Assembly: GCA_019695265.1 (NCBI GenBank)
Contig: JAIBAJ010000013.1
Coordinates: 1-49,169, forward strand
Source of the DNA: Bacteroidia bacterium
Lineage (GTDB): Bacteria; Bacteroidota; Bacteroidia; JAIBAJ01
DNA: 49,169 bases
Direction: 5' to 3'
Of this stretch, positions 18,617 to 47,201 are shown piece by piece. A program made the position numbers and the translations under genes. Under the pieces are notes generated by a model. The model had not been told where the DNA came from and did not search any database. It worked only from the letters and a program-made list of their open reading frames with translations. Numbering within the stretch: position 1 is the first letter of the stretch; each line of letters opens with the position of its first letter.

Positions 18617-21070
18617 CTAGGGCGAAACTTTACAAAATTTACCCGAAACACCGCCGCATCGTATTGTATAAATTCCTGACGGCCAATTGGATACATTAAA
18701 AGAAACCTCGTTAAAACCAATTTCCGCTTGGTAAATATGAGCTGACTGCCTTTGTCCAACGCTGTTATAAACTTCCACCCATTCCGAATCTTCCGGCTCA
18801 TGCTCCCAAACCGCATGAATGTAACCATTTGCTATCGGATTGGGATAGATAAAAAGCTTCACCTTTTCATCCAAAGGCCTAAAAATGGCCTGAACCTTAA
18901 GTTGGGTATTGGATTGAAGTTGAATGCTATCTGTATAAAAAGTGCCGGAACTATCATTTTGTACACGAAAAGAAAGAAATTGAAAGCCTGGTTTTGCAAC
19001 TGCTTTAATTGTAATTGGGACTTCCTGAAAGTACAATCCATTCCAACCATGTTCAAGACCTTGAAGACTGTTCAGATCGAAAGTTCCCCCTAGTTCGGGC
19101 ACACAATCCAATTGCAAAGGATAGGGCTGTTGAAGCTGAAAATAATCCCGAAGATGCTCGCGGGCAAAATCGGTTCTTTGCTGAATATAAGGAAAAGCCA
19201 TCGTATCAAACTCAGCTTGCCAGCTTTGCATAGAGCCTCCCCAGGTTTGAAACTGCAGAGGCATTTCGGTTCGAATAGTATTCAAACAGGCTTGGGTATG
19301 ACTTAGCAAATTCTCCACCTTAAACCATGCGTTCATGGCATCGGCATACCGGTTTATAAAACGGTTACGAAAGCCCTGATTTTTGAGCAATTCATTTAAA
19401 ATAAAAATTTGCTTGTTAGATAAGCCTATATATTCAAACATTCGCTTAAACATATTGTAGTTAGCCGGGGCCCAGCCAATATTACCAAGGGATATGTCAA
19501 AATCGATGGGAAGATAACGCCATTTTGCACCGGGCTTTCGCTCCCGCCAATACTTCATGTTGTTGTTAGGCCAATCAATATTTGAAAAAAAAGTCTCGGC
19601 AATGAAGTAATCAATAAAATTACTAATATCTAACTGTTTACTTACCGAATCGAACACCCATGATTGAGCAAGATCTTGGTTTTGAATAAAGGCAAACAAT
19701 TGATTCCAATTTTCAAAATCACCTTCCCAGGCTAATTGGTCTTCTTCCAGTAGATCCAGGTTTTCTTTATCAATTTCCGGATAGTGTTCGTTTAAGAAAT
19801 GTTTGTCAATTTTCTCTCGTAAATTGTACAAACCCAAAAATTGTCCATTGAAATATACTTTAGTTGCCCGATAGGGGTTAAGATCCAAATCCATTTTAGC
19901 CTTGATAAGCAGGGAATGTACTGCTTCATCCCGGCAATGCAGTTTATTGAAGTCTCCACTTCCATTTCGAAGCACCAGGCTTTTAAAACGAACTGCAGAT
20001 AAATCAGGAAAGAAACGACAAACCATGCGGTTGTTTCCATAAGCTGTTTTAGCCTCCAGGTGAAGGCTTTTCATTGGTTTGGTTCGGTTTTGTGAACCTC
20101 CATGAATTTCGGCATCTACCCATTGATCCAACCTTTTTCTTCCATTGCTTTCAAAAAACTCCAAATGCAATGGCACTTTCCAATCTTGCCAAAAATTAGC
20201 ACCGTAGTATGGATAATCCGGTGAAGCGTTGGGACCTGTAATAAAAATGCCCGAATCAGGGCTAAAAAAATAGGCTGAATCGGTAGTAAGAGAAATGACT
20301 GTCAAAGGAGGGTGAGTTTCAACCCAATAGGTTTCAACCCATTCTTCAGAAGGCAGCAAACTATCAGTCTCAGACATGGGAAAATTACGAATTCTAAAAC
20401 TGGTATTGGTATTAACTTCCAATTCATCCGGGAAAATGGTACCGTTTAGCAAGGGCTTCGAGCCATTTCTGGTATAAACACTGCGGTATGGGCGGGAAGT
20501 AGGCAAAAGATGAAGCTTGACCCCATTTGGATAAAACCCACCCATGCGACTGGTTCTTACTGCTTCACAATAAGCCTTAAAATAGCGGGTATTATGGTTA
20601 GCTTGGTTAGGACTTGGTGTTTCAACTATTCGAAATGGTCCAAATTCACCAGGTATTCTGGCTATGCTGTGGTTTGGTTGTAAACTCTTACCGCTAACCT
20701 GATCCAGTATGCCCTCACCGGCGTGAAAAAGATAAATTGTTTCATCCCTCGATTCAACTTCAAAAGCGGAATGCAGCTCATTGGGTGAATTGGTTTTACC
20801 CGACAAAAACACTAAAAAGACCGCATGAGCAGGAACCTGAAAAGAAGGCAACTCCCAGGCAGATTGAAAATCCGGATGATTGGAAAGAAAATAACCCGAA
20901 GTACTTATCGCTGTTTCAGCAGAATTAACGAGTTCAAGCCAAGGTTCATTATCACCCGATTCGTCTTCAAGTTCGGAATTGATGGGACAATATTCATTAA
21001 TTCTAAGCTGAGAATAACTCTTAGCACAAAACAATACCAATATGCAACAAAAAAAGACGAAACGACACAT
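18617..21070 (-). CDS. Secreted CotH-domain protein with lamin-tail domain and T9SS sorting tail
   Basis: An exported protein of 817 residues. Signal peptide 1-20 (ends SYSQ). A lamin-tail domain follows (about 21-155, with INEYCP and EPWLELVNSA). A chitobiase C-terminal-like segment (about 165-250) has the VYTRNGSKPLLNGT motif. A CotH kinase-like domain (about 298-600) has HCRDEAVHSLL, GLYNLREKIDKHF and WRYLPIDFDISLGN; related CotH proteins are atypical protein kinases. The last 80 residues form a Por sorting tail (VKLFIYPNPIANGY ... GIYTIRCGG). The domain order is common among Bacteroidota surface proteins. It converges on the mutase gene, and the two are separated by the 17870-18533 repeat island. 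The function on the cell surface is unknown. Confidence 0.88.
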   Translation of the reverse strand: MCRFVFFCCILVLFCAKSYSQLRINEYCPINSELEDESGDNEPWLELVNSAETAISTSGYFLSNHPDFQSAWELPSFQVPAHAVFLVFLSGKTNSPNELHSAFEVESRDETIYLFHAGEGILDQVSGKSLQPNHSIARIPGEFGPFRIVETPSPNQANHNTRYFKAYCEAVRTSRMGGFYPNGVKLHLLPTSRPYRSVYTRNGSKPLLNGTIFPDELEVNTNTSFRIRNFPMSETDSLLPSEEWVETYWVETHPPLTVISLTTDSAYFFSPDSGIFITGPNASPDYPYYGANFWQDWKVPLHLEFFESNGRKRLDQWVDAEIHGGSQNRTKPMKSLHLEAKTAYGNNRMVCRFFPDLSAVRFKSLVLRNGSGDFNKLHCRDEAVHSLLIKAKMDLDLNPYRATKVYFNGQFLGLYNLREKIDKHFLNEHYPEIDKENLDLLEEDQLAWEGDFENWNQLFAFIQNQDLAQSWVFDSVSKQLDISNFIDYFIAETFFSNIDWPNNNMKYWRERKPGAKWRYLPIDFDISLGNIGWAPANYNMFKRMFEYIGLSNKQIFILNELLKNQGFRNRFINRYADAMNAWFKVENLLSHTQACLNTIRTEMPLQFQTWGGSMQSWQAEFDTMAFPYIQQRTDFAREHLRDYFQLQQPYPLQLDCVPELGGTFDLNSLQGLEHGWNGLYFQEVPITIKAVAKPGFQFLSFRVQNDSSGTFYTDSIQLQSNTQLKVQAIFRPLDEKVKLFIYPNPIANGYIHAVWEHEPEDSEWVEVYNSVGQRQSAHIYQAEIGFNEVSFNVSNWPSGIYTIRCGGVSGKFCKVSP

Positions 21071-23674: not shown

Positions 23675-25903
23675 TTATTCCTTAATCCAGTTTTTCACAA
23701 TAGCTGAATCACCCGAAGTGATTTTTACCAAGTATTGTCCAGGAGTTAGGTTTTCGGTATTAAAGGAGTATTGGTTATTTCCTTTAGAGGCTTTGTAATT
23801 TCCTTGCAGAACTACTTTACCAAGCAAGTCGCACAACTGAATTTGAACAGGTTGGTATTGATCTACATTTAGGGAAATGTTTAAAAAGGCTTTACTTGGG
23901 TTAGGGAAAACTGCCAATTGATTATCCAATAAACTTGGGGTTTCTACATCGGTAAATTCGCAAGGTGCGGTACCTGGGTTTGCGATATAATTCATGGTAA
24001 AGAAGTCGATGTGACAAACCCAATCAGGATTATCAATAAAAGGATTCCGGTTTCCTTGTAAAGAATCAAGGAATTCATTGCGGGCAATTTCCCAGGCATC
24101 CGGTGGATCTTGGAAATGCCATTGACGCAATACATTTTGGTTTTCATATATAGCGGCATGAGGCAAAGTCCAGGAGTTTCCACTTTCGCCATTGTAAGCG
24201 GCACACATATAAAACAAGGCTCTAGCAGCATCACCTTTATGGCTATCGCGAGGTTCAAAAACATTTTTCCCGGAAGAATTTTTACCATAGGTGGCATCTT
24301 GGAAGGTACTTACCACGGTAGCTACATTATCCAATGGCAAATTGCTTCTGGTTTCGTTTACATCAGTGAACTTAGCCGGAAAGATGTGGTGTTGATCATT
24401 GTATTCCGGTAGTTCAGGATTGTCGGCCGGGTTAGTTGGCATCCAATCATGGCAATAGGTATGCTCCCGACTGAAGTCTGCTGTTGTCCAATCAAATGGT
24501 TCAGAATAAACTTGGTTTAAACCGGAATATACACAGGTTACCACTTTTTGTCCGTTGGTAGTATCGCGGGAGGAAAACAAACGAACCATGGTTTCGTCGT
24601 AATTTCCATAGAAAATAGAAGTATGTGGGTTAATTACAGCTTGCAGGTCATTCACGAAGGTGGAGGCAGAAGGATCAACACCATTGTAATAGCTGCCCGG
24701 GTTAGCACCTGTTGTGGTTACAGAACCGGTTAAAGGGTTGGATTGCAGGTAATTTACAACCGCTCCGGTGCCGTTGTAGGCATAAACAGCAAAGTAATAA
24801 TCGGTATTGGCAACGTTGTAGGTAGGAACAACGGAAGTTGCCGAACCAACACTTACAACTTTAGCACCACCAATGGCATCACCACGTGTATAAAAAGTAC
24901 CATCCACAGGGGTTTCAGTTACTGCAGAACCAATTTTACGCAACACCAAATAACCGGTTGGAGCAGAAGAGGCTGCAGTAAAGTTGGCTGTGTAACGATA
25001 CGCTTTCACATTTGAAAAACTTAAACCGGTAGCTTGAGCCGCTGGTTCGGTAGCATATTCTCCACCCACCCCAAAAAGGTTAATCACATAAGAACCTTCA
25101 TCGGCATCGTTATTTGCAATGGTCATCACAGCCGAACGAGTTCCGGCAGCAGATGGAGTAAAGGTTACGGCTAAAGTAGTATTGCCGGAAGGAGAAACCG
25201 TAGCAGGAAAACTTGGTGAGCTAACAGAAAAATCAGAAGCTGCCGGACCTGAAAAGTTAACTCCGCTAAGAGATAAACTTTGTTGAGTTCCTTGGTTTTC
25301 AACAGTAAAATTCACTGTTAGAGGCGTTGAAACATTGGAAGAGAAAGGAGCAGAAGTTCCACCGGAGAAGATAGTAGATCCGTTTTGTTTCACGTTAATC
25401 TCTTGTGAAGTAACAACTGCCTGAGCGATGCTAATTTCATCAATGGCCACATTGCTTCCGGATGATTTTGCGGTAAAGAACCAACGGATGTAACGACTGG
25501 CGGCATTAGGATTAGCGGTGTATTGAACAAAGTTGTTCGCATTCAGGTTGTTGGAAAATGTGGTAAGTGCTGTCCAGTTGCTACCATTTGTAGACTCTTC
25601 CAAAGTAAAAGTTCCTTGCCAGGCTGCACCATTGGAGGTAGATCCTTTCAGGTAGTAAGTAACTACGCCCATTGGGTCGTTTGTTTGAACCCCAATGTAT
25701 TCGCCTTGAAGGTCAATTTTACCGGAAACCCCCGACTGACCAGTGGTATAGGTATAAGTACCGGTTATGTTGGTAGTCCAACCGGCAGAAAGGCTGGATT
25801 GCCCTGCAAAGCCTTCGAAATTATACGAAGTTGGCAGAGGAGCCTGGGCAAAAGCACCTGCGGAAAAACTTAGGATTGCCGCAGTAAATAAACGTTTTAG
25901 CAT
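23675..25903 (-). CDS. Secreted endonuclease I family nuclease with T9SS sorting tail
   Basis: A 742-residue extracellular nuclease. Signal peptide 1-19 (ends GAFA). Residues 20-160 form a beta-sandwich resembling a carbohydrate-binding or adhesion module, 168-280 a choice-of-anchor D-type Ig-like domain, and 285-398 a fibronectin III-like domain. The endonuclease I domain (PF04231) is at 401-632, with REHTYCHDWMP (E480, H481), DQHHIFPA (503-510), NETRSNLPL, DSHKGDAARALFYM and QGNRNPFIDNPDWV. The Por sorting tail is 659-742 (LAVFPNPSKAF ... GQYLVKI). It starts 17 bases after the TonB-dependent receptor stop and is followed by two terminators, so it is co-transcribed with the receptor. It probably digests DNA or RNA outside the cell. 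Confidence 0.93.
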   Translation of the reverse strand: MLKRLFTAAILSFSAGAFAQAPLPTSYNFEGFAGQSSLSAGWTTNITGTYTYTTGQSGVSGKIDLQGEYIGVQTNDPMGVVTYYLKGSTSNGAAWQGTFTLEESTNGSNWTALTTFSNNLNANNFVQYTANPNAASRYIRWFFTAKSSGSNVAIDEISIAQAVVTSQEINVKQNGSTIFSGGTSAPFSSNVSTPLTVNFTVENQGTQQSLSLSGVNFSGPAASDFSVSSPSFPATVSPSGNTTLAVTFTPSAAGTRSAVMTIANNDADEGSYVINLFGVGGEYATEPAAQATGLSFSNVKAYRYTANFTAASSAPTGYLVLRKIGSAVTETPVDGTFYTRGDAIGGAKVVSVGSATSVVPTYNVANTDYYFAVYAYNGTGAVVNYLQSNPLTGSVTTTGANPGSYYNGVDPSASTFVNDLQAVINPHTSIFYGNYDETMVRLFSSRDTTNGQKVVTCVYSGLNQVYSEPFDWTTADFSREHTYCHDWMPTNPADNPELPEYNDQHHIFPAKFTDVNETRSNLPLDNVATVVSTFQDATYGKNSSGKNVFEPRDSHKGDAARALFYMCAAYNGESGNSWTLPHAAIYENQNVLRQWHFQDPPDAWEIARNEFLDSLQGNRNPFIDNPDWVCHIDFFTMNYIANPGTAPCEFTDVETPSLLDNQLAVFPNPSKAFLNISLNVDQYQPVQIQLCDLLGKVVLQGNYKASKGNNQYSFNTENLTPGQYLVKITSGDSAIVKNWIKE

Positions 25904-28783: not shown

Positions 28784-29686
28784 TTAGTTAATGGATAACT
28801 TGCTGTATCCAATCGTATTTTGGTCGAAATAGGCTTTTACAATGTATAAACCTTTGTCAATTCCTACGGTAGAAAATTGCATTCCGCTTAGGTAGGCTTC
28901 GTTGTTCATGAAACTAGCAACTACTTTACCTGAGCGATCAACAAGCTCAACACGGGTAACTTTATTTTTAGTGGAAAGGGTAACTTCTGTGTTATTAGAC
29001 GGATTTGGGAACACAGAAACAAAATGTTTGCTACTTTCTTTAATTCCGGTAGCACAAACACAGTCATGAGTTCCTAAACCATCCCAGGTGTTTACTACCA
29101 AGGTATCATATTCAGCCAATGGATCAAAAAAATCAGGGTTGGTGGCAACACCACGATCAACACCGGCCTTACGACGCATGGTATGATCCTTGGTAATCCA
29201 AGCACCTTGAGCATCGGTATATGGGTATTCATTGGTCCAAGCAGTACCGGGATCTTCACCAATTTTACCGAAGATATCCACTTTTTCAGTACCAAATTCC
29301 AAAACCACGGCATCGTCACCATTCATATAAGTTGGTGCAGGATAAGCTCCATCCAACTGGTCTGCCAAAGCTTGTAACGCCGGACTACAAGCAGGAGAGC
29401 TTGCTGTTCCGGTGGTTTGTCCGTTTACAATAACCCAAACATCATTTGGAGCAATTGTTCCTGATAGTGCAAGTTCGCCACCGGCAGTATAAGCCGTGCT
29501 ACCATTGCTATAACGTCTAATAAAGTATCCGGTAAGGCTAATTGGTTGATTAGTTGGATTATAAATCTCCAAAGCCTTGTCATTTCCATCACCATCAATG
29601 TATTCAGAAATGAACAATTGGGTGCATTGTGCTGAAGCTAAGGAAGCCAAAGATACAGCGAATAAGGTAGTAAAAATTTTCTTCAT
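28784..29686 (-). CDS. Secreted lamin-tail domain protein with T9SS sorting tail
   Basis: A 300-residue exported protein. Signal peptide 1-19 (SLASLASAQ). One lamin-tail domain covers about 20-205 (FISEYIDGDGNDKALEIYNPT, with GYFIRRYSNGS, DVWVIVNG, DDAVVLEFG and VDIFGKIGEDPG). This is the subtype often linked to extracellular nucleases in Bacteroidota. A Por sorting tail covers about 222-300 (HFVSVFPNPSNNTE ... KGLYIVKAYF). It is the first gene of the receptor-nuclease cluster and has a good -7 box upstream, but a strong terminator lies between it and the receptor. The lamin-tail domain is thought to bind nucleic acid or act as an adhesion module; its role here is inferred. Confidence 0.88.
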   Translation of the reverse strand: MKKIFTTLFAVSLASLASAQCTQLFISEYIDGDGNDKALEIYNPTNQPISLTGYFIRRYSNGSTAYTAGGELALSGTIAPNDVWVIVNGQTTGTASSPACSPALQALADQLDGAYPAPTYMNGDDAVVLEFGTEKVDIFGKIGEDPGTAWTNEYPYTDAQGAWITKDHTMRRKAGVDRGVATNPDFFDPLAEYDTLVVNTWDGLGTHDCVCATGIKESSKHFVSVFPNPSNNTEVTLSTKNKVTRVELVDRSGKVVASFMNNEAYLSGMQFSTVGIDKGLYIVKAYFDQNTIGYSKLSIN

Positions 29687-30355: not shown

Positions 30356-31450
30356 TTATCTTGAAACAGAAATTTTACTGTTTAGTAAATTCTTACCATC
30401 TTCTGTTTGTACTTGAAGGAGGTAAAGTCCACTGTTTAAGCCACTTGTAGCAATTTCATTCTTACCTTCAGTCAAGGTAATTTCACTTAACAACTGACCA
30501 TTTAGGTTAGATATTTTAGCAATTGCGCGATTGGTTTGACCAAGTTCAACATACATAAAATCGGTGGCAGGGTTAGGATAAACTAACACAGAAACATAGG
30601 AATTTAAATCAGAAACACTTTCAGGATTTACTAAAAAACGGGCCGAAGTGCGCTCACCGGTACCTTTATCTGTAATCATTCTAACCATGGTGTAACCAAA
30701 TGATTTTTCAAGAAAATCATAGGTAATGGTAGAATCTACAATCGGGTTGGGGATGTTTTGACCAAATTGTTGAAAATTAGCCAATCCCCAGGTTTGTGGA
30801 CCAAATAAACCACCTTTAATGAAAACACTGTCGGTTGTCCAATCGGTTGTTTGATTTCTCAACACTTCGAATTGGCCCAATGGACCGGTTAGGGTACCAA
30901 AGGCATCAACAACAGAGCTGGAGTGTCCGGTATGAACTATCATGGCTGAGTCGACAAAGCTGGCATAAGTACCTGTTAATTTAAATGCTTTGCGAAAATG
31001 GTAAGTATCCATAAAGTTGGTTCCCAAGGTAGTTGGAAGTTTTACCAGAGTTTGAGGATCGTCGAAAGGAATTTGCAAAACGAAACCCAAGCCTTGGAAA
31101 TCGCCCGAAAAGCCCATAATTTCTACTTCGGATGAGCTAATGGTTGCGAAAGCATAACCACCCATTTGGGTCATGGCCATATCGGCTGTTGGGAATTGGT
31201 CGCCATTGGGAACTGCCGAAGGACTTAAAAAAGCCAAGGTATCTAAACGATGTTGAGATAGGGAGGTGAAGTTCCAGGATTGACTGCTGCTGCTGCCGGA
31301 ACCCAAATCAATGGAAGCAGAGGGCATAGTGTCGGTAGCTTCGAAATACAAATCACCAACGGCAGGAAAATCCGTTTGATCGATGGTAATTTGTGCCGAA
31401 ACCAATGCCGGTACACACAAAGCTAATAATGAGGGTAATAGTTTTTTCAT
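30356..31450 (-). CDS. Secreted protein of unknown function with T9SS sorting tail
   Basis: A 364-residue exported protein. The signal peptide is 1-19 (ends LVSA, next residue Q). The body (20-280) is beta-rich and low in charge, with a poly-Ser patch GSGSSSSQSWNF. This pattern is common in uncharacterised Bacteroidota T9SS cargo proteins and I recognise no enzyme domain. The C-terminal Por tail covers about 284-364 (VSVLVYPNPATDFMYVELG ... SGLYLLQVQTEDG). It has a well-formed promoter (31470-31499) and no terminator before tRNA-Cys, so its transcript may read into the tRNA. Confidence 0.82.
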   Translation of the reverse strand: MKKLLPSLLALCVPALVSAQITIDQTDFPAVGDLYFEATDTMPSASIDLGSGSSSSQSWNFTSLSQHRLDTLAFLSPSAVPNGDQFPTADMAMTQMGGYAFATISSSEVEIMGFSGDFQGLGFVLQIPFDDPQTLVKLPTTLGTNFMDTYHFRKAFKLTGTYASFVDSAMIVHTGHSSSVVDAFGTLTGPLGQFEVLRNQTTDWTTDSVFIKGGLFGPQTWGLANFQQFGQNIPNPIVDSTITYDFLEKSFGYTMVRMITDKGTGERTSARFLVNPESVSDLNSYVSVLVYPNPATDFMYVELGQTNRAIAKISNLNGQLLSEITLTEGKNEIATSGLNSGLYLLQVQTEDGKNLLNSKISVSR

Positions 31451-38837: not shown

Positions 38838-39281
38838 CTAATTTCTGGTATTGGCAGTAGCCTTAATACTCAATACATACCGGTAAACAGCGTCCTTTTG
38901 GGCCTGATTAAACTCGGCCTTTTGGGCCATATCGTCCATAATTTGCTTCCACTCCGTAACCGAATGCCTGGAAATATTTTTTGCTTTATGACAATTGATG
39001 CAGGCGCCAGCAGTGTATAACTGAAAACCCTGATTTAACTGGTCCATGGTGGCATCTTGAAAATGAGGCAAAATAGCACTTAACTCAGCCATAGTCGGGC
39101 TATAAACGCCTTTGGGCAACTCAACGGAGGTTTCACTACCCATCCAGGGATTAGAAACAGAGCCTTCCTGAACCGGAGGCGGAGAAGCAGGCGTATCGAC
39201 GGTTGTCTTACTTGGAGTTTTACAAGCTGAAAAGCCAATTATAAACCCTCCAACCAAGGAAATACAGGCAAATTTTTTCAT
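38838..39281 (-). CDS. Lipoprotein c-type cytochrome (single haem)
   Basis: A 147-residue lipoprotein. The signal peptide ends GFSAC with lipidated Cys20, followed by a Pro/Thr-rich linker (about 21-60). One haem-binding CxxCH motif lies at 94-98 (GACINCHKAKN). M118 in the following helix (EWKQIMDDM) is a possible axial ligand. The single-haem domain resembles small cytochromes that shuttle electrons outside the inner membrane. It is isolated, with its own TACATTTG -7 box, so its redox partner is not in the window. Repeat copy G immediately follows the stop. Confidence 0.85.
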   Translation of the reverse strand: MKKFACISLVGGFIIGFSACKTPSKTTVDTPASPPPVQEGSVSNPWMGSETSVELPKGVYSPTMAELSAILPHFQDATMDQLNQGFQLYTAGACINCHKAKNISRHSVTEWKQIMDDMAQKAEFNQAQKDAVYRYVLSIKATANTRN

Positions 39282-39299
39282 TTACTGTTAATCAGAATC

Positions 39300-39307
39300 C
39301 AAATGTA
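39300..39307 (-). promoter_or_regulatory. -7 box of the cytochrome gene
   Basis: TACATTTG on the minus strand, an exact TAnnTTTG match 18 bases before the start at 39281. Confidence 0.5.
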
Positions 39308-39576
39308 AACGAGGAAGGCAAGGTAAACTTAAAAACCAGGTAATATTAACCACTTTTAACCCTTATAAGCAGATGGAGTGATAAATCGAATGAGTAAAGT
39401 TGTTCTTTCATTGCTTTCCAAATTAAGATTGATTTCATGGAGGAACGAAAGAGGAATGGCAAGTTTGAAAAAACCTATTAAAATGATATCAAGGAATTAT
39501 CCCCTGTTCGAAATTAACTTTTGTTAATCTCCATGGATTTTGGTTGTTACACTTTTGCGTCATCAAAAATCCCATT
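39308..39576. other. Divergent intergenic region before the S74 surface protein
   Basis: About 270 bases between the divergent cytochrome and surface-protein genes. A weak promoter-like CACTTTTG lies at 39550-39557, 19 bases before the surface-protein ATG, but without a well-spaced TTG. Nothing else is recognised. Confidence 0.35.
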
Positions 39577-42500
39577 ATGATAAGAAAAACACTTGCCTTC
39601 TTTATTCTAAGCATTTCTTCTATTTCGTACCTGCACTCTCAAAATGTAGGCGTTGATGTAGCCAATCCACAGCAAAAACTTGATGTAGCCGGCGGACTAA
39701 GAATTGGTATGACCTCTGTGGGTTTAGCCGGAAGTATTCGCTGGACCGGTTCGGCCTTTGAAGGACACAACGGAACAGCTTGGTTGCCATTGGGCTCAGG
39801 TTCAGGTGGAGCTACCGGACCTACAGGACCTACCGGGGCGACTGGTTCACAAGGAGCAACCGGAGCAACCGGAGCTACAGGGGCTACCGGATATCTTACG
39901 AATGGGTCTGCGGCAGGAAATACACCCTATTGGAACGGCTCGGCCTGGGTAACCAATACCAGCAATATTTTTAACAACGGAGGGAATGTTGGAATTGGAA
40001 CTACCAGTCCAACCAATGCTAAATTACATGTGGAAAATCCCGGACGATCTACTATAGCTCGCTTTGGAGGAAGCAATCCTACCTATTTAATGGCTAATTA
40101 TCCGGTTCTGGGGTTTAATGCCTATTATGGAGGTTCATCCTGGAATTTTGGAACAACCGGATATGGAGGATTAATTGGTATGAGTCCGAACAATGGTCGT
40201 ATTTTTATAAGTACCAGTTCAGTTTCCGGAGCTGCAGACGGAACGGCAACTATGACCGATGTTATCAATATTTTGAACAATGGAAAAGTAGGAATAGGGG
40301 AAACTTCTCCCAATGCATTGCTAACAGTTGGGGCGGCCATGTCCAATAATGTTAACCCTCAACTAAGTGTAAACACAACAGGCAATATACCAGTCCTAAT
40401 TGGAGAAACAACCAACAATAAAGGAGTGATGTTGGGCTATGCCGGTAATGATGTTCAAGGAAGAAGCGGTAATAGTCTGATTCAAAATTCCGATTTGGTT
40501 TTAAACGGATATGGAGGAAATGTGGGAGTTGGAAATTTTACCCCGGGTGCAAAATTGGATGTAGCGGGTAAAACTAAAACAACGACTCTGCAAATGACCT
40601 CCGGAGCGGCGGCCAACTATGTATTGCAAAGCGATGCCTCCGGAAATGCAAGCTGGGTTGCACCAACTGCACTGACTGTTACTGAAAATGATCCACAAGT
40701 TTCATCAGCCACTTCCAATGCTGTGCCTAAATGGAACGGAACTAGCCTGACAGATGGAACCATTACCGACAATGGCAATGTGGGAATAGGTTCCACTACC
40801 CCATCTGAGAAGTTGGATGTGGTTGGTAAGACCAAAACCACCACTTTGCAAATGACCAATGGAGCAGCCGCAAACTATGTTTTGCAAAGTGATGCCTCCG
40901 GAAATGCAAGCTGGGTTGCTCCAACTGCACTAACAGTTACCGAAAATGATCCACAAGTATCTTCTTCCACCTCCAATACCGTTCCTAAATGGAATGGAAC
41001 AACCTTGACAGATGGAACCATTACCGACAATGGCAATGTGGGAATAGGTTCCACTACCCCATCTGAGAAATTGGATGTGGTAGGTAAAACCAAAACCACC
41101 ACCTTGCAAATGACCTCCGGAGCCGCAGCCAACTATGTATTGCAAAGCGATGCCTCCGGAAATGCAAGCTGGGTTGCACCAACTGCACTTTCTGTTACCG
41201 AAAATGATCCACAAGTATCTTCTTCCACCTCCAATACCGTTCCTAAATGGAATGGAACAACCTTGACAGATGGAACCATAACCGACAATGGCAATGTGGG
41301 TATAGGTACTGTAACTCCATCTGAAAAACTAGAGGTAGCAGGCGCAATAAAGGCAACCGGAGGCGCCACTTTTGGAAATAATATACAAGTTAATGGGAAT
41401 TTTTATTTAGAAAACACCAACGGTACAGGAAGTGTTCTTCCTTTTAGACTGGATGGGTTTTCAGATAAATTATATGTAATTGCGGAAAGCCAGGCCGGTG
41501 GACCAAGTGGAACAGAGATTCGTTTCCGTACCGCATCTTCCTCTGCTTCTGCTTCAGATAAGATGGTAATTAACAAAGATGGAAATGTGGGTGTTGGAAA
41601 CATGTCGCCTACGGAGAAATTAGATGTTTCAGGAAAAACCAAAACCACCACCTTGCAAATGACTTCCGGCGCAGCAGCTAACTATGTATTGCAATCCGAT
41701 GCATCCGGAAATGCTACCTGGGTTGCACCAACTGCATTAACAGTTACCGAAACCGATCCACAGGTTTCCTCAACCACTTCCAATGCTGTGCCCAAATGGA
41801 ACGGAACCACCCTCACCGATGGAACTATAACCGACAATGGCAATGTGGGAATTGGCTCTGCTACTCCTTCCGAGAAATTGGATGTAGCTGGCAAAACCAA
41901 AACCACCACCTTGCAAATGACCTCCGGTGCTGCGGCAAACTATATATTGCAATCCGATGCATCCGGAAATGCGACCTGGGTTGCACCAACCGCATTGACC
42001 GTAACCGAAACCGATCCACAGGTTTCCTCAGTAACTTCCAATGCCGTACCCAAATGGAACGGAACCACCCTCACCGATGGAACTATAACCGACAATGGTA
42101 ATGTGGGAATTGGCACTACGGCACCTGCAGCCCAATTGCATGTGAATGGAACTTCTCAAACCGACGGCAATGCTTATTTTGCATCAAGCCTTGGGGTTGG
42201 AACTTCGACACCAACCAATGCTCAGATTCAATTAGGTAACAGTTCAGGAACCCAAGCCCGATTTGGAGGGAATAATCCGTTGTATATCATGTCAAACTAT
42301 CCAGTTGTTGGATTCAATACGTATTACAACAATTCGGCCTGGCGCTACAGTAATACCAATTTTGGTGGTTTAATAGGGATGGAAACTGGAACAGGACGAA
42401 TTTTTATCAGTTCAAGCACCACTTCCGGAACTTCCGGATCTGCGGCAAATATGACCGATGTTATAAATATAATGCCATCTGGAAACATTGGAATTGGAAC

Positions 42501-45342
42501 TACTGCTCCGACTGCAACACTAGATGTAACAGGCAAAACAAAAACCACCAATTTACAAATCACTTCCGGCGCAGCAGCTAACTATGTATTGCAATCCGAT
42601 GCATCCGGAAATGCGACCTGGGTTGCACCAACTGCATTAACAATTACCGAAAGCGATCCACAGGTTTCCTCAACCACTTCCAATGCTGTACCCAAATGGA
42701 ATGGTACCACCCTCACCGATGGAACCATAACCGACAATGGCAATGTGGGAATTGGTTCAGCTACACCTTCCGAGAAATTGGATGTGGCAGGAAAAACCAA
42801 AACCACCACCTTGCAAATAACCTCCGGTGCTGCGGCAAACTATGTATTGCAATCCGATGCGTCCGGAAATGCTACCTGGGTTGCACCAACTACATTGACT
42901 GTAACGGAAAGCGATCCACAGGTTTCATCAACCACTTCCAATTCAGTACCTAAATGGAACGGAACCACCCTCACCGATGGAACCATTACCGATAACGGAA
43001 ATGTGGGAATAGGAACGGTAAGTCCATCTGAAAAATTGGAAGTTGCCGGTTCATTAAAAACCAGTGGAGGAGCTACATTTGGAAATAATGTTCAGGTAAA
43101 CGGGAATATTTACCTAGAAAACAACAGTGGTACAGGAAGTGCACCTCCTTTTAGGTTGGATGGCTTTTCAGATAAATTATATGTCGTAGCAGAAAGCCAG
43201 CCCGGTGGTCCAAATGGAACCGAAATCCGTTTCAGAACTGCAAGTTCCTCTACTACTGCCTCAGATAAAATGGTCATTAATAAAGATGGGAATGTTGGGA
43301 TTGGCTCGGTTTCCCCTTCTGAGAAATTAGAAATTAATGGTAAGACAAAAACAACTGACTTGCAATTGACTTCCGGCGCGGCAGCTAATTATATCCTGCA
43401 AAGCGACGCATCGGGAAATGCTTCCTGGGTTAATCCCAATACGGCCATTGCACCTAATAAATTACAAGATGCTGATGCCAATACCAAAATTGAAGTAGAA
43501 AAAAACTCCAATGAAGATAAAATTCGTTTTTCAATGGCCGGAATTGAATATTTAGTGATGGACAAAGGTCATTTTTATACTTCCAACACAGCAGGTAATA
43601 CCTGGTTTGGAGAGCAATCCGGTCAGAACTTCAGTGTAGGTTCTACTACATACAACTCCTATTTTGGTTTCAAATCCGGATTTACAGCCACTACCGGAGC
43701 TGAAAACGTAGCTATGGGTGCCCAATCCTTAGCTTTTAACAATACCGGAAGTTACAATACGGCATTAGGCACTTATGCTATGCGTTCAACTACAGGATCG
43801 GGTTCTACTGCAGTTGGTCATAATGCATTATTTAATAATCAGGGAGGATCAGACAATGTGGCATTGGGTAGAAATGCAGGTTATGCAACCACTACAGGAA
43901 CCGGAAACATTTTTCTGGGAACCAATGCCGGTTATTATGAAAATGGAAGCAATAAATTGCATATAGACAATGCTCAAACTACTACTCCATTAATTTACGG
44001 AGATTTTAGCAGTGATTTTATTACTGTTTTCGGAAAACTGGCAGTAGGTACTTCTTCACCAAGTTCCGATTTTTCTTTTGGTGGAGATGGAACAACGGAT
44101 CGTAAAATTGCCATGGAACGTAATACAACAGTAGCGGATGGAAACGACTTAACTATTCAGTCGGGAGGAGCGGCAGTTGGAGTTACCAATGCCAGCGGTG
44201 GTAATTTAATTTTAAACAGTGGTATTTCAACCGGCAATGGCAGTGCTGCCAGCTCCATTGTATTTGGAACCGCCAGTCCTGGTGCATCAGGTACTGCCAA
44301 CCGCAACCCATCAGAAAAAATGCGGATTACCGCAGCAGGAAATATTGGAATTGGAACTTCGGCTCCTTCCAAAACCCTGGATGTACTGGGTAAAGTTGGT
44401 ATTTTCTCCGGAAGAAACAACGACCCAACCATCCGAGGCTTATCAAACGGAGCTTGGTTTCGTATTGGTGGTTCAGATGCAGGTTTGGCACTTTGGGGTA
44501 ACAGTGCAGCAGAAACAGATGAATCGCCCGGTTTGTTTGTTAGCAGCAGTAATAATGTGGGCATTGGAACTACCAATGTCACCAAAGCAAAATTAGAAGT
44601 TAATGGTTCCCAAACTACCACCCTTAGCTATGGCTACCTCAATAGCAGTGCCAATACAGGTACCGCTTCCAACCAATCTACCTTTTATTCCATTTATGCT
44701 TCTGCCCGAATTGCTGCAACCGAATTCAATGCCTATTCCGATGCCCGAATCAAAAAGATAAAAGGGCTATCCAACAATGAAGAAGATCTTCAACGACTAT
44801 TAGGTATCCAAATTACCGATTATACCTTAATAGATACCATTGAAAAAGGAAACAACTCCTATAAAAAGGTAATCGCCCAACAAGTAGAACAAGTATTCCC
44901 ACAGGCGGTAAGTACCATGACCGATGTTATTCCCAACATCTATCAATTGGCTGATATTCAAAACGGTAAAATCAACTTAAACAATACCCTTAAAGCCGGT
45001 GATAAAGTGAAACTTATCTTCGAAAGCGGTACTGAACTACTTCAGGTAACCGAGGCTACCCCGGGTTCTTTCCGTGTAGAAAGTCCTAAATGCGGAAAAG
45101 TGTTTGTTTATGGGGTTGAAGTAAATGACTTCCACACCGTTGATTACGAAGCACTTTCAACCTTAAACATTTCAGCCACACAGGAGCTCTTTAAAATGAT
45201 TACCCGCTTAAGCAGTGAGAACGAACTTCTGAAAGACCAAATGGCAACATTCTCCAGCGATATAGAACAAATTAAGGCTCAAATTGGCTTACAACAGGGA
45301 GTGAAATCAGGCAATGAATCTGCTTCCATGACTACCAATTAA
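39577..45342 (+). CDS. Giant repeat-built surface protein with collagen-like segment and C-terminal S74 self-cleaving chaperone
   Basis: A 1921-residue exported protein. Signal peptide about 1-20 (ISYLHSQ). A collagen-like Gly-x-Thr run of about 30 residues (GPTGPTGATGSQGATG, near 78-106) is followed by a long array of tail-fibre-like modules ending in VGIGTTxPxxKLDV turns, including eight copies of an 86-residue unit. After about residue 1300 come FGFKSG and GTYAMRS head-repeat motifs. The C-terminus is an intramolecular chaperone of the endosialidase S74 type with the Ser-Lys dyad S1721-K1726 (YSDARIKK) and IAQQVEQVFPQAV. It would trimerise the fibre and then cut before S1721, releasing 201 residues. 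The C-terminal helix suggests a coiled coil. There is no T9SS tail. Start chosen at the Met opening the signal peptide. Confidence 0.88.
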   Translation: MIRKTLAFFILSISSISYLHSQNVGVDVANPQQKLDVAGGLRIGMTSVGLAGSIRWTGSAFEGHNGTAWLPLGSGSGGATGPTGPTGATGSQGATGATGATGATGYLTNGSAAGNTPYWNGSAWVTNTSNIFNNGGNVGIGTTSPTNAKLHVENPGRSTIARFGGSNPTYLMANYPVLGFNAYYGGSSWNFGTTGYGGLIGMSPNNGRIFISTSSVSGAADGTATMTDVINILNNGKVGIGETSPNALLTVGAAMSNNVNPQLSVNTTGNIPVLIGETTNNKGVMLGYAGNDVQGRSGNSLIQNSDLVLNGYGGNVGVGNFTPGAKLDVAGKTKTTTLQMTSGAAANYVLQSDASGNASWVAPTALTVTENDPQVSSATSNAVPKWNGTSLTDGTITDNGNVGIGSTTPSEKLDVVGKTKTTTLQMTNGAAANYVLQSDASGNASWVAPTALTVTENDPQVSSSTSNTVPKWNGTTLTDGTITDNGNVGIGSTTPSEKLDVVGKTKTTTLQMTSGAAANYVLQSDASGNASWVAPTALSVTENDPQVSSSTSNTVPKWNGTTLTDGTITDNGNVGIGTVTPSEKLEVAGAIKATGGATFGNNIQVNGNFYLENTNGTGSVLPFRLDGFSDKLYVIAESQAGGPSGTEIRFRTASSSASASDKMVINKDGNVGVGNMSPTEKLDVSGKTKTTTLQMTSGAAANYVLQSDASGNATWVAPTALTVTETDPQVSSTTSNAVPKWNGTTLTDGTITDNGNVGIGSATPSEKLDVAGKTKTTTLQMTSGAAANYILQSDASGNATWVAPTALTVTETDPQVSSVTSNAVPKWNGTTLTDGTITDNGNVGIGTTAPAAQLHVNGTSQTDGNAYFASSLGVGTSTPTNAQIQLGNSSGTQARFGGNNPLYIMSNYPVVGFNTYYNNSAWRYSNTNFGGLIGMETGTGRIFISSSTTSGTSGSAANMTDVINIMPSGNIGIGTTAPTATLDVTGKTKTTNLQITSGAAANYVLQSDASGNATWVAPTALTITESDPQVSSTTSNAVPKWNGTTLTDGTITDNGNVGIGSATPSEKLDVAGKTKTTTLQITSGAAANYVLQSDASGNATWVAPTTLTVTESDPQVSSTTSNSVPKWNGTTLTDGTITDNGNVGIGTVSPSEKLEVAGSLKTSGGATFGNNVQVNGNIYLENNSGTGSAPPFRLDGFSDKLYVVAESQPGGPNGTEIRFRTASSSTTASDKMVINKDGNVGIGSVSPSEKLEINGKTKTTDLQLTSGAAANYILQSDASGNASWVNPNTAIAPNKLQDADANTKIEVEKNSNEDKIRFSMAGIEYLVMDKGHFYTSNTAGNTWFGEQSGQNFSVGSTTYNSYFGFKSGFTATTGAENVAMGAQSLAFNNTGSYNTALGTYAMRSTTGSGSTAVGHNALFNNQGGSDNVALGRNAGYATTTGTGNIFLGTNAGYYENGSNKLHIDNAQTTTPLIYGDFSSDFITVFGKLAVGTSSPSSDFSFGGDGTTDRKIAMERNTTVADGNDLTIQSGGAAVGVTNASGGNLILNSGISTGNGSAASSIVFGTASPGASGTANRNPSEKMRITAAGNIGIGTSAPSKTLDVLGKVGIFSGRNNDPTIRGLSNGAWFRIGGSDAGLALWGNSAAETDESPGLFVSSSNNVGIGTTNVTKAKLEVNGSQTTTLSYGYLNSSANTGTASNQSTFYSIYASARIAATEFNAYSDARIKKIKGLSNNEEDLQRLLGIQITDYTLIDTIEKGNNSYKKVIAQQVEQVFPQAVSTMTDVIPNIYQLADIQNGKINLNNTLKAGDKVKLIFESGTELLQVTEATPGSFRVESPKCGKVFVYGVEVNDFHTVDYEALSTLNISATQELFKMITRLSSENELLKDQMATFSSDIEQIKAQIGLQQGVKSGNESASMTTN
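40570..43600 (+). repeat. Coding tandem and modular repeats, 258-bp unit x8
   Basis: Eight copies of a unit beginning Lys-Thr-Lys-Thr (then TSGAAANYVLQSDASGN) start at 40570, 40828, 41086, 41635, 41893, 42535, 42793 and 43342; neighbouring copies are exactly 258 bases apart. Two other modules also occur twice: one with RFGG.NP.Y.M.NYPV.GFN.YY (about 40060 and 42260) and one with FRLDGFSDKLYV.AESQ (about 41440 and 43150). The order is A-B-B-B-C-B-B-A-B-B-C-B. Confidence 0.9.
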
Positions 45343-45374
45343 TTCAGTTGTTCATTCATCACTGTAAAACAAAC

Positions 45375-47201
45375 ATGAAAGCAGGAATTTTAATCTTTTT
45401 AACCTCTGCTACCCTGGTATTAACAGGCAAGGCTCAATTGGTTAATCAAACAACCCTGACCATTCAATCGGGTGTGAATTTGTATGTGGAAGGAAACGGA
45501 CAAAACCAAAACGGGGCAACCATTCAAAATGCCGGAACCCTGCATTTAAAAGCCAACTTTTCCAATTCAGGCACCTCCTTGGTTGCAGGTAAAGTTATTG
45601 CTGATGGCACTTCCGGCTCCCAAACTTTGACCGGAAATTCCAACTTCCATACTTTGGAAATTGACAATTCCAATGGAGTTTCGGTAAATTCAGGAGCCAC
45701 CGTTGGAATTGTACCCACAAACGCTGTTGGTTCACTTAACTTGAAATCTGGCACCTTTACTGCGCCAGCCGGAGCCGTAACTCTACAATCAAACAGCAAT
45801 GGCACTGCTTACCTCGACAACTTTTCATCGGGTATGAACGGAGTATATAACCCCAGCTCCTTGCTTACCGTGCAGCGCTATGTACCCGGTTCTACAACCT
45901 ATCATTATTTAAGCACTCCGGTTAGCGGAACGTTTATTAGCGACTGGTCCGACGACTTTACCATACAGGGACAAGATGGGTTTGTAAATGACGGTGTTAC
46001 CAATACCATTCCATGGCCAACCCTTTGGCGCTATGAAGAATCTAATCCGAATGCCAACATGATGGTAGGTTGGATAGCCACCACCGGTGCCTCCAATCCC
46101 ATCGATCGGGTAAGGGGTTATGCCTGTATGTTTAGTGGTACAACCGTTGATGTTTTAGGCACGGTAAGTCAAACCACTCCAACCCGACCTATCACACATA
46201 CCACCTCCACCCAGCCATTATCTGACGGATGGAATTTAGTTGGCAACCCTCATCCATCTATGCTGGATTGGGATTTGGTTTACTCCCAAAACTCGTCGCT
46301 TGTCTCGGCAATTATTTACCAATGGAAGGTAAATCAATATGTTTCCTACAATGCTCTCACCGGCGTTTCCATCAATGGAGGAAGCGACAAAATTGCATCT
46401 TCACAGGGCTTTTTTATCCGATGCAATAGTTCAGGCAGCTTTTCCATTCCCGGTTCTACCCGAATCACCGGTACCAATGCCCCTTTCTTCAAACAGGAAC
46501 AGCCTGAATGGCCTTTCCTTCGTTTGGGCATAGGAAGAAACCAGGCTCTATCGCATGAAGATGGCGATTGGGACGAAACGGTGGTTTACCAGGATTTACA
46601 TTCCTCCGACGAATTAGACGAATACGGTGATGCACCAAAGTTCCTTTCTGAACAATCTCCGGCAATTTCCATTTATACACTCGAAGAAGAAACACCTTTA
46701 ACCATGAATGCCTTGAAGCATTTTCAAACGGAAAAAACAATCCCCATAGGTGTTAAAGTAACAGCCAGCGGAGCTTACAACTTTTTACCTACCGAATTGT
46801 TGAATACAGGAGGAATGAAAATAATTTGGGAAGATCGTCTTCAAAAGAATTCCGTGGTATTGGAACCAGGAAAGCCTATCCAGGTTTTGATAGGAAAAGA
46901 TGAGGCAGAAACCGGACGTTTTTTTCTTCGTCTTTCCAATGCCGAAAATCCGGAAAACAATTCTACTCAGCCCGATTTGTTAATGTTCTTAAGTCAAAAC
47001 CAACTTCACCTAATTCGAAGCCAAGGGCTAGAACCTGCAACCATAGATTTGGTTAATTTATCCGGACAAGTGGTGACTTCCTATCGGGTAGGTTCCGAAC
47101 CTGATTATACCATTTCATGCGAGAATTTGTCCCAGGGAATATATCTGGCCAGGTATCAGCAAGGCGAAAAGGTGGTAATCAGAAAAGTGGTATTGGAATA
47201 G
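45375..47201 (+). CDS. Secreted T9SS cargo protein following the S74 protein
   Basis: A 608-residue exported protein. The signal peptide is MKAGILIFLTSATLVLTGKA (1-20). The first 150 residues are a beta-helix-like repeat of short G/N/S/T-rich strands (GATIQNAGTLHLKANFSNSG). The middle has the pattern LTVQRYVPGSTTYHYLSTPVSG ... GWNLVGNPHPSMLDW, common in Bacteroidota T9SS proteins. The C-terminus is a Por-type sorting tail (about 540-608, LVNLSGQVV ... LSQGIYLARYQQGEKVV). It starts 32 bases after the S74 gene stop, so the two are probably co-transcribed and may form one surface structure. The Met at 45375 is chosen because it begins the signal peptide. Confidence 0.85.
   Translation: MKAGILIFLTSATLVLTGKAQLVNQTTLTIQSGVNLYVEGNGQNQNGATIQNAGTLHLKANFSNSGTSLVAGKVIADGTSGSQTLTGNSNFHTLEIDNSNGVSVNSGATVGIVPTNAVGSLNLKSGTFTAPAGAVTLQSNSNGTAYLDNFSSGMNGVYNPSSLLTVQRYVPGSTTYHYLSTPVSGTFISDWSDDFTIQGQDGFVNDGVTNTIPWPTLWRYEESNPNANMMVGWIATTGASNPIDRVRGYACMFSGTTVDVLGTVSQTTPTRPITHTTSTQPLSDGWNLVGNPHPSMLDWDLVYSQNSSLVSAIIYQWKVNQYVSYNALTGVSINGGSDKIASSQGFFIRCNSSGSFSIPGSTRITGTNAPFFKQEQPEWPFLRLGIGRNQALSHEDGDWDETVVYQDLHSSDELDEYGDAPKFLSEQSPAISIYTLEEETPLTMNALKHFQTEKTIPIGVKVTASGAYNFLPTELLNTGGMKIIWEDRLQKNSVVLEPGKPIQVLIGKDEAETGRFFLRLSNAENPENNSTQPDLLMFLSQNQLHLIRSQGLEPATIDLVNLSGQVVTSYRVGSEPDYTISCENLSQGIYLARYQQGEKVVIRKVVLE

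Follow-up and report, generated by a model that had tools for sequence, protein, structure and literature searches.

A duplication-grown modular gene for a predicted secreted S74 surface fibre in a Bacteroidia bacterium

Introduction

A Bacteroidia genome carries, on contig JAIBAJ010000013.1, a single open reading frame (39577-45342, plus strand, from the ATG at 39577 to the stop ending at 45342) for a 1,921-residue protein with a long array of repeated modules, which raises the questions of what such a protein is, how its array arose, and how it might reach the cell surface. An earlier note on this DNA had described a surface protein assembled from repeated modules and grown by segmental duplication, and that observation proved largely right, being confirmed in part. 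We analyzed the gene within its window, that is, the whole stretch of 49,169 nucleotides, and compared it with related genes elsewhere. The gene probably encodes a secreted homotrimeric Bacteroidia surface fibre, with a modular shaft grown by duplication and finished by a Peptidase_S74 domain.

Results

Architecture of the fibre gene

The encoded protein runs from a signal peptide through a collagen-like stretch, the module array, a β-solenoid and further capping-loop segments to a C-terminal S74 domain (Table 1). The array has the order A-(D)-B-B-B-C-B-B-A-B-B-C-B. The order first proposed, A-B-B-B-C-B-B-A-B-B-C-B, is therefore correct apart from module D; the three types A, B, and C stand, but a fourth had been overlooked. 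Similarly, the eight B units of exactly 258 bases turned out to be seven full copies with that exact period, which TRF reported as period-258 arrays scoring 1225, 848, and 759, whereas the eighth is truncated. Every module is opened by a GNVGIGxxxPxxKLxV-type motif, with GNVGIG occurring in A, B, and C alike, and this motif is the natural module boundary. The protein contains 15 such capping motifs, compared with a mean of 0.065 in the shuffled protein.

Table 1. Features of the fibre gene and its downstream neighbour (positions in the window)
Feature	Position	Strand	Remarks
Sec-type signal peptide	39577-39639	+	aa ~1-21, by inspection; without lipobox cysteine
Collagen-like GPTG/GATG stretch	39799-39891	+	aa 75-105; under the Pfam cut-off; TRF
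Module A1	39982-40278	+	
Module D	40279-40515	+	between A1 and B1; opened by a GKVGIG variant
Modules B1, B2, B3	40516-41289	+	258 bp each; starts 40516, 40774, 41032
Module C1	41290-41580	+	
Modules B4, B5	41581-42096	+	
Module A2	42097-42480	+	54% aa identity to A1
Modules B6, B7	42481-42996	+	block copy related to B4-B5
Module C2	42997-43287	+	83.5% aa and 79.7% nt identity to C1
B8, truncated B	43288-43446	+	53 aa
β-Solenoid "roll" domain	43432-44076	+	NxALGxxA...NxTG rungs, ~17 residues each; YadA-head-like
Peptidase_S74 intramolecular chaperone/autoprotease and C-terminal helical tail	44737-45339	+	SDARIK; predicted catalytic Ser at aa 1721
Partner gene, T9SS C-terminal sorting domain	45375-47201	+	~608 aa; 32 bp downstream, same strand

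The assembly is a draft of 213 contigs, and an array of this kind might owe its order or copy number to misassembled paralogous fibre genes. We regard this as extremely unlikely: the reading frame is intact over 5.8 kb, the other fibre genes of the same genome lack close B copies, and the longest exact repeat within the gene, an 86-bp run in the B2/B3 tandem, is shorter than ordinary short reads. Identical extra module copies could nevertheless have been collapsed in the assembly.

Age and constraint of the B units

Compared in the module register, pairs of full B units (seven in all) share 75.6 to 93.4% identity. The adjacent pairs B1/B2, B2/B3, B4/B5, and B6/B7 are 81.8, 93.4, 86.4, and 81.4% identical, respectively, whereas the non-adjacent pairs B5/B7 (89.9%) and B4/B6 (87.6%) exceed most of them, so that the closest pair is B2/B3, followed by B5/B7 and then B4/B6. 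The view that neighbouring copies are nearly identical thus does not hold for the array and roughly fits B2/B3 alone. By contrast, the claim that the differences are mostly silent was borne out: third codon positions hold 647 of the 947 pairwise differences, and dN/dS among the copies is 0.05 to 0.22. Since dS is large (approximately 0.25-1.3), most B copies are old, and they are strongly constrained at the protein level.

Growth of the array

Self-comparison at fixed lags revealed two duplicated blocks, one of approximately 430 bp at 81 to 100% identity (B4-B5 versus B6-B7) and one of approximately 0.9 kb at approximately 80% (B2-B3-C1-B4' versus B6-B7-C2-B8'). Because B6-B7 takes part in both relations, the duplication events overlapped in time. 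These results support growth of the array by stepwise in-register duplication of single modules or module blocks, and agree with the earlier proposal of segmental duplication under purifying selection. In a tree with B-like units from other genomes, the B units of the fibre gene clustered together in 84% of bootstraps; the three units of the related locus L024 did so in 100%, and those of L023 were mixed. That duplication is continuing, as had been suggested, is not established because of the large dS.

Gene conversion was assessed by run tests. These were significant when the B units were cut at KTKTT, but at the GNVGIG boundary most of the signal disappeared and only B3/B5 was left (p = 0.0017 before correction, 21 pairs). 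The significance was mostly an artefact of the cut point, and we keep conversion among the B units only as a suggestion from these tests.

The gene might also be read as encoding an adhesin with phase or antigen variation, in which slippage or conversion would rapidly alter the repeat number, as the tandem 258-bp arrays, with exact identity up to 86 bp, and a between-species module indel in another genus (see below) would allow. This reading is unlikely. The B units are mostly 76 to 93% identical, with dS values that give no hint of recent turnover, the signal of conversion varies with the register of the cut, no simple-sequence tracts with units of 1 to 7 bp occur inside or ahead of the gene, and no inverted repeats of at least 60 bp were found within 39000-46500. 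The fibre gene is thus probably not a phase-variable locus, and neither conversion nor ongoing change nor phase variation is established for it.

Module gain and exchange in related genes

Length variation, which the note had predicted between strains, was found in the form of whole modules in the genus g4, a different genus from the source. There, a single complete module of 80 residues separates the orthologues of genomes G003 and G180: G003 carries an additional in-frame insertion of 240 bp, exactly one module. Across the greater part of the two genes there are approximately 9 mismatches, and nearly all other mismatches lie within approximately 250 aligned bases flanking the insertion, a pattern suggestive of recombination-like module exchange. 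Two further g4 loci, L077 and L090, have both the N- and C-terminal ends in common and a middle that differs throughout. These sequences show that relatives in g4 acquire, drop, or exchange entire modules, apparently through recombination. At L074 and L023, the S74 domain is shared at approximately 60% but the modules follow other orders, and the D-B order of the fibre gene also occurs in Flavobacterium lotistagni (L023).

S74 fibres were present in 195 of the 295 sampled Bacteroidia genomes, with a maximum of 17 copies. The source genome itself has three S74 genes besides this one, as well as a collagen-like/GIG-motif gene (C76, C185, C21, and C131, corresponding to L001, L002, L003, and L018). 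In three genomes, the proteins encoded immediately upstream of fibre genes (L074:1574-3424, L076:3665-5446, and L028:4332-6089) have, by inspection, a LuxR-like helix-turn-helix at the C terminus. B-like units were also seen on contigs labelled as Nanoarchaeota and Ignavibacteriae MAGs (L034 and L041), possibly through transfer or binning error.

The S74 and roll domains and their structural relatives

Peptidase_S74 (PF13884) matched residues 1721 to 1778 with 27 bits (curated cut-off, 22) and with 32.2 bits in the genome search. The SDxxxK motif is present as SDARIK at residue 1721 and is kept in all six aligned homologues (6/6). In the PDB, a profile of this domain matched 7dc3, the autoprocessing domain of MyRF (E 8e-8), as well as Bd2133, a mosaic adhesive trimer (MAT) protein, and 6f45, the long tail fibre of a phage. 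For the whole protein, the best PDB matches were the Bdellovibrio MAT fibres 8ond, 8oml, and 8on4 (E 3e-5 to 6e-5), with the GNVGIG motifs carrying the alignment; these matches are weak and limited to the shaft, and the composition of the protein is repetitive. Among solved structures, the only credible relatives are the Bdellovibrio MATs for the repeats, and the MyRF and phage-fibre chaperones for S74. A match to TrbF (NCBIfam; 40.6 bits, far under the cut-off of 152) was rejected as spurious.

The AlphaFold2 monomer model of the S74 region was too poor for use (pLDDT 46.5). The roll domain was modelled with a pLDDT of 86.5, and Foldseek matched the model to phage S74/YadA-like proteins with probability 1.0; no PDB match was obtained at E <= 0.001 with the model or against PDB sequences with the roll profile. 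Trimerization and self-cleavage of the fibre would follow from homology.

Genomic neighbourhood and the T9SS

The fibre protein (P0001) has no T9SS sorting domain of its own in domain scans, and the gene is followed by a partner gene that encodes one (Table 1). Standalone homologues of the partner, or other sorting-domain proteins, also adjoin S74- or module-bearing fibre genes at L023, L027, L039, L072, L073, L074, L077, L086, L087, L088, and L090. Using an eight-sequence profile built in this analysis, we found a sorting-domain gene as a same-strand neighbour at 15 of 40 S74 loci, which were the best-scoring places (L100-L139 among the loci concerned) and included L119, a cluster of sorting-domain genes. 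Sorting domains occurred in 17 of 57 same-strand neighbours of S74 genes, as against 9 of the 198 remaining ORFs (Fisher p = 6.8e-7). Such genes are common, with 150 matches scored in the source genome. SprA is present in this genome; it is also found in 286 of the 295 sampled genomes, so its co-occurrence with S74 is uninformative. We put forward the T9SS link of S74 fibres as a hypothesis drawn from gene order.

The window contains four other T9SS sorting-domain genes (18617-21070, 23675-25903, 28784-29686, and 30356-31450), one of them with a CotH kinase domain. At another locus, a single 360-residue protein (L107:5571-6650, minus strand) has both a Peptidase_S74 and a T9SS sorting domain. 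One SprA match (G085:C31:2804-9811) has three in-frame TGA codons, which may reflect a TGA-recoding genome or sequencing errors.

The neighbourhood also bears on whether the gene belongs to a chromosomally resident prophage or phage-derived particle and specifies its tail fibre. In PHROGs, the best-matching families are those of tail fibre proteins (1.7e-46), making a phage-derived origin possible, and tblastn gave distant phage matches. These matches, however, reach at most approximately 35% identity and none spans 80% of the query, and a viral_contigs scan found no confirmed relative of module B. Moreover, the gene lies between housekeeping genes (malate synthase, HemD, and an acyltransferase), no phage structural genes were found among the neighbours scanned, the protein carries a Sec signal peptide, and its orthologues adjoin T9SS-sorted proteins. 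We therefore consider a phage tail fibre very unlikely and favour a chromosomally encoded surface fibre.

Discussion

The product of this gene would be a secreted, homotrimeric cell-surface fibre encoded in the chromosome, in which each GNVGIG...KLDV motif forms a capping loop opening one intertwined β-helix module. Because each module is opened by its own capping loop, an added module would lengthen the shaft with the trimer unbroken. The array grew by duplication under strong selection conserving the protein sequence. The shaft would be followed by a YadA-like β-solenoid and the C-terminal S74 domain, which is predicted to nucleate trimerization and to cut itself off at Ser1721. The mature fibre may then bind a surface or glycan, a putative adhesive role, and may be delivered together with the adjacent T9SS-sorted protein.

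The closest known counterparts are the MATs of Bdellovibrio bacteriovorus, which have been described as surface-displayed fibres with trimeric β-helix shafts, a capping loop of the form VG..PxxxL, and self-cleavage through SDxxxK (PMC10769870). With the S74 subgroup of MATs (PMC10769870), the fibre shares a signal peptide, capping-loop shaft modules, a C-terminal S74 domain with SDxxxK, and a mosaic architecture. The β-helix shaft is indicated by the 15 motifs and the matches to sequences of MAT crystal structures, and the mosaic of conserved ends and variable modules was seen in relatives (L077/L090) from a different genus. On the other hand, MATs come from Bdellovibrionota and this fibre from Bacteroidia, its array is far longer with closely similar repeats, and it has a YadA-like roll, a collagen-like stretch, and a T9SS-sorted neighbour. 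The MAT superfamily has a conserved β-rich N-terminal domain of approximately 130 residues after the signal peptide, whereas the PDB matches of the fibre span the shaft only. The fibre thus probably works like a MAT fibre; we do not claim membership of the superfamily, which is defined by that N-terminal domain. The label "adhesin" is a reasonable analogy to the Bdellovibrio MATs.

Phage S74 tail spikes and fibres, such as endosialidase and the S16 long tail fibre (6f45), have the S74 intramolecular chaperone and β-helix shaft in common with the fibre, but the gene is chromosomal, with a Sec signal peptide and no phage genes found around it. The MyRF autoprocessing (ICA) domain (7dc3) has a homologous S74 domain with the same VGINTDRPDEAL-type capping motif, although MyRF is a eukaryotic membrane transcription factor. 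With the YadA-type trimeric autotransporter adhesins, the fibre would share the logic of a trimeric adhesin, and its roll resembles YadA-like heads; no YadA C-terminal membrane anchor was detected in the Pfam scan, the C terminus being S74 and a helix.

The fibre protein is an ordinary representative of a class that is widespread yet has received little study. Targeted literature searches on S74 fibres in Bacteroidetes returned no account of their role, the Bdellovibrio MAT paper alone being on point, although such fibres are widespread in the sampled Bacteroidia. We tentatively suggest, as a possibility that the present data leave doubtful, that Bacteroidota S74 fibres make up a widespread repertoire for surface recognition that swaps modules and is equivalent to MATs, delivered with or through the T9SS via an adjacent or fused sorting-domain partner. 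Given the exact module boundaries, the natural indel of a single module, and the link to T9SS partners, both the evolution and the export of these fibres can be tested directly.
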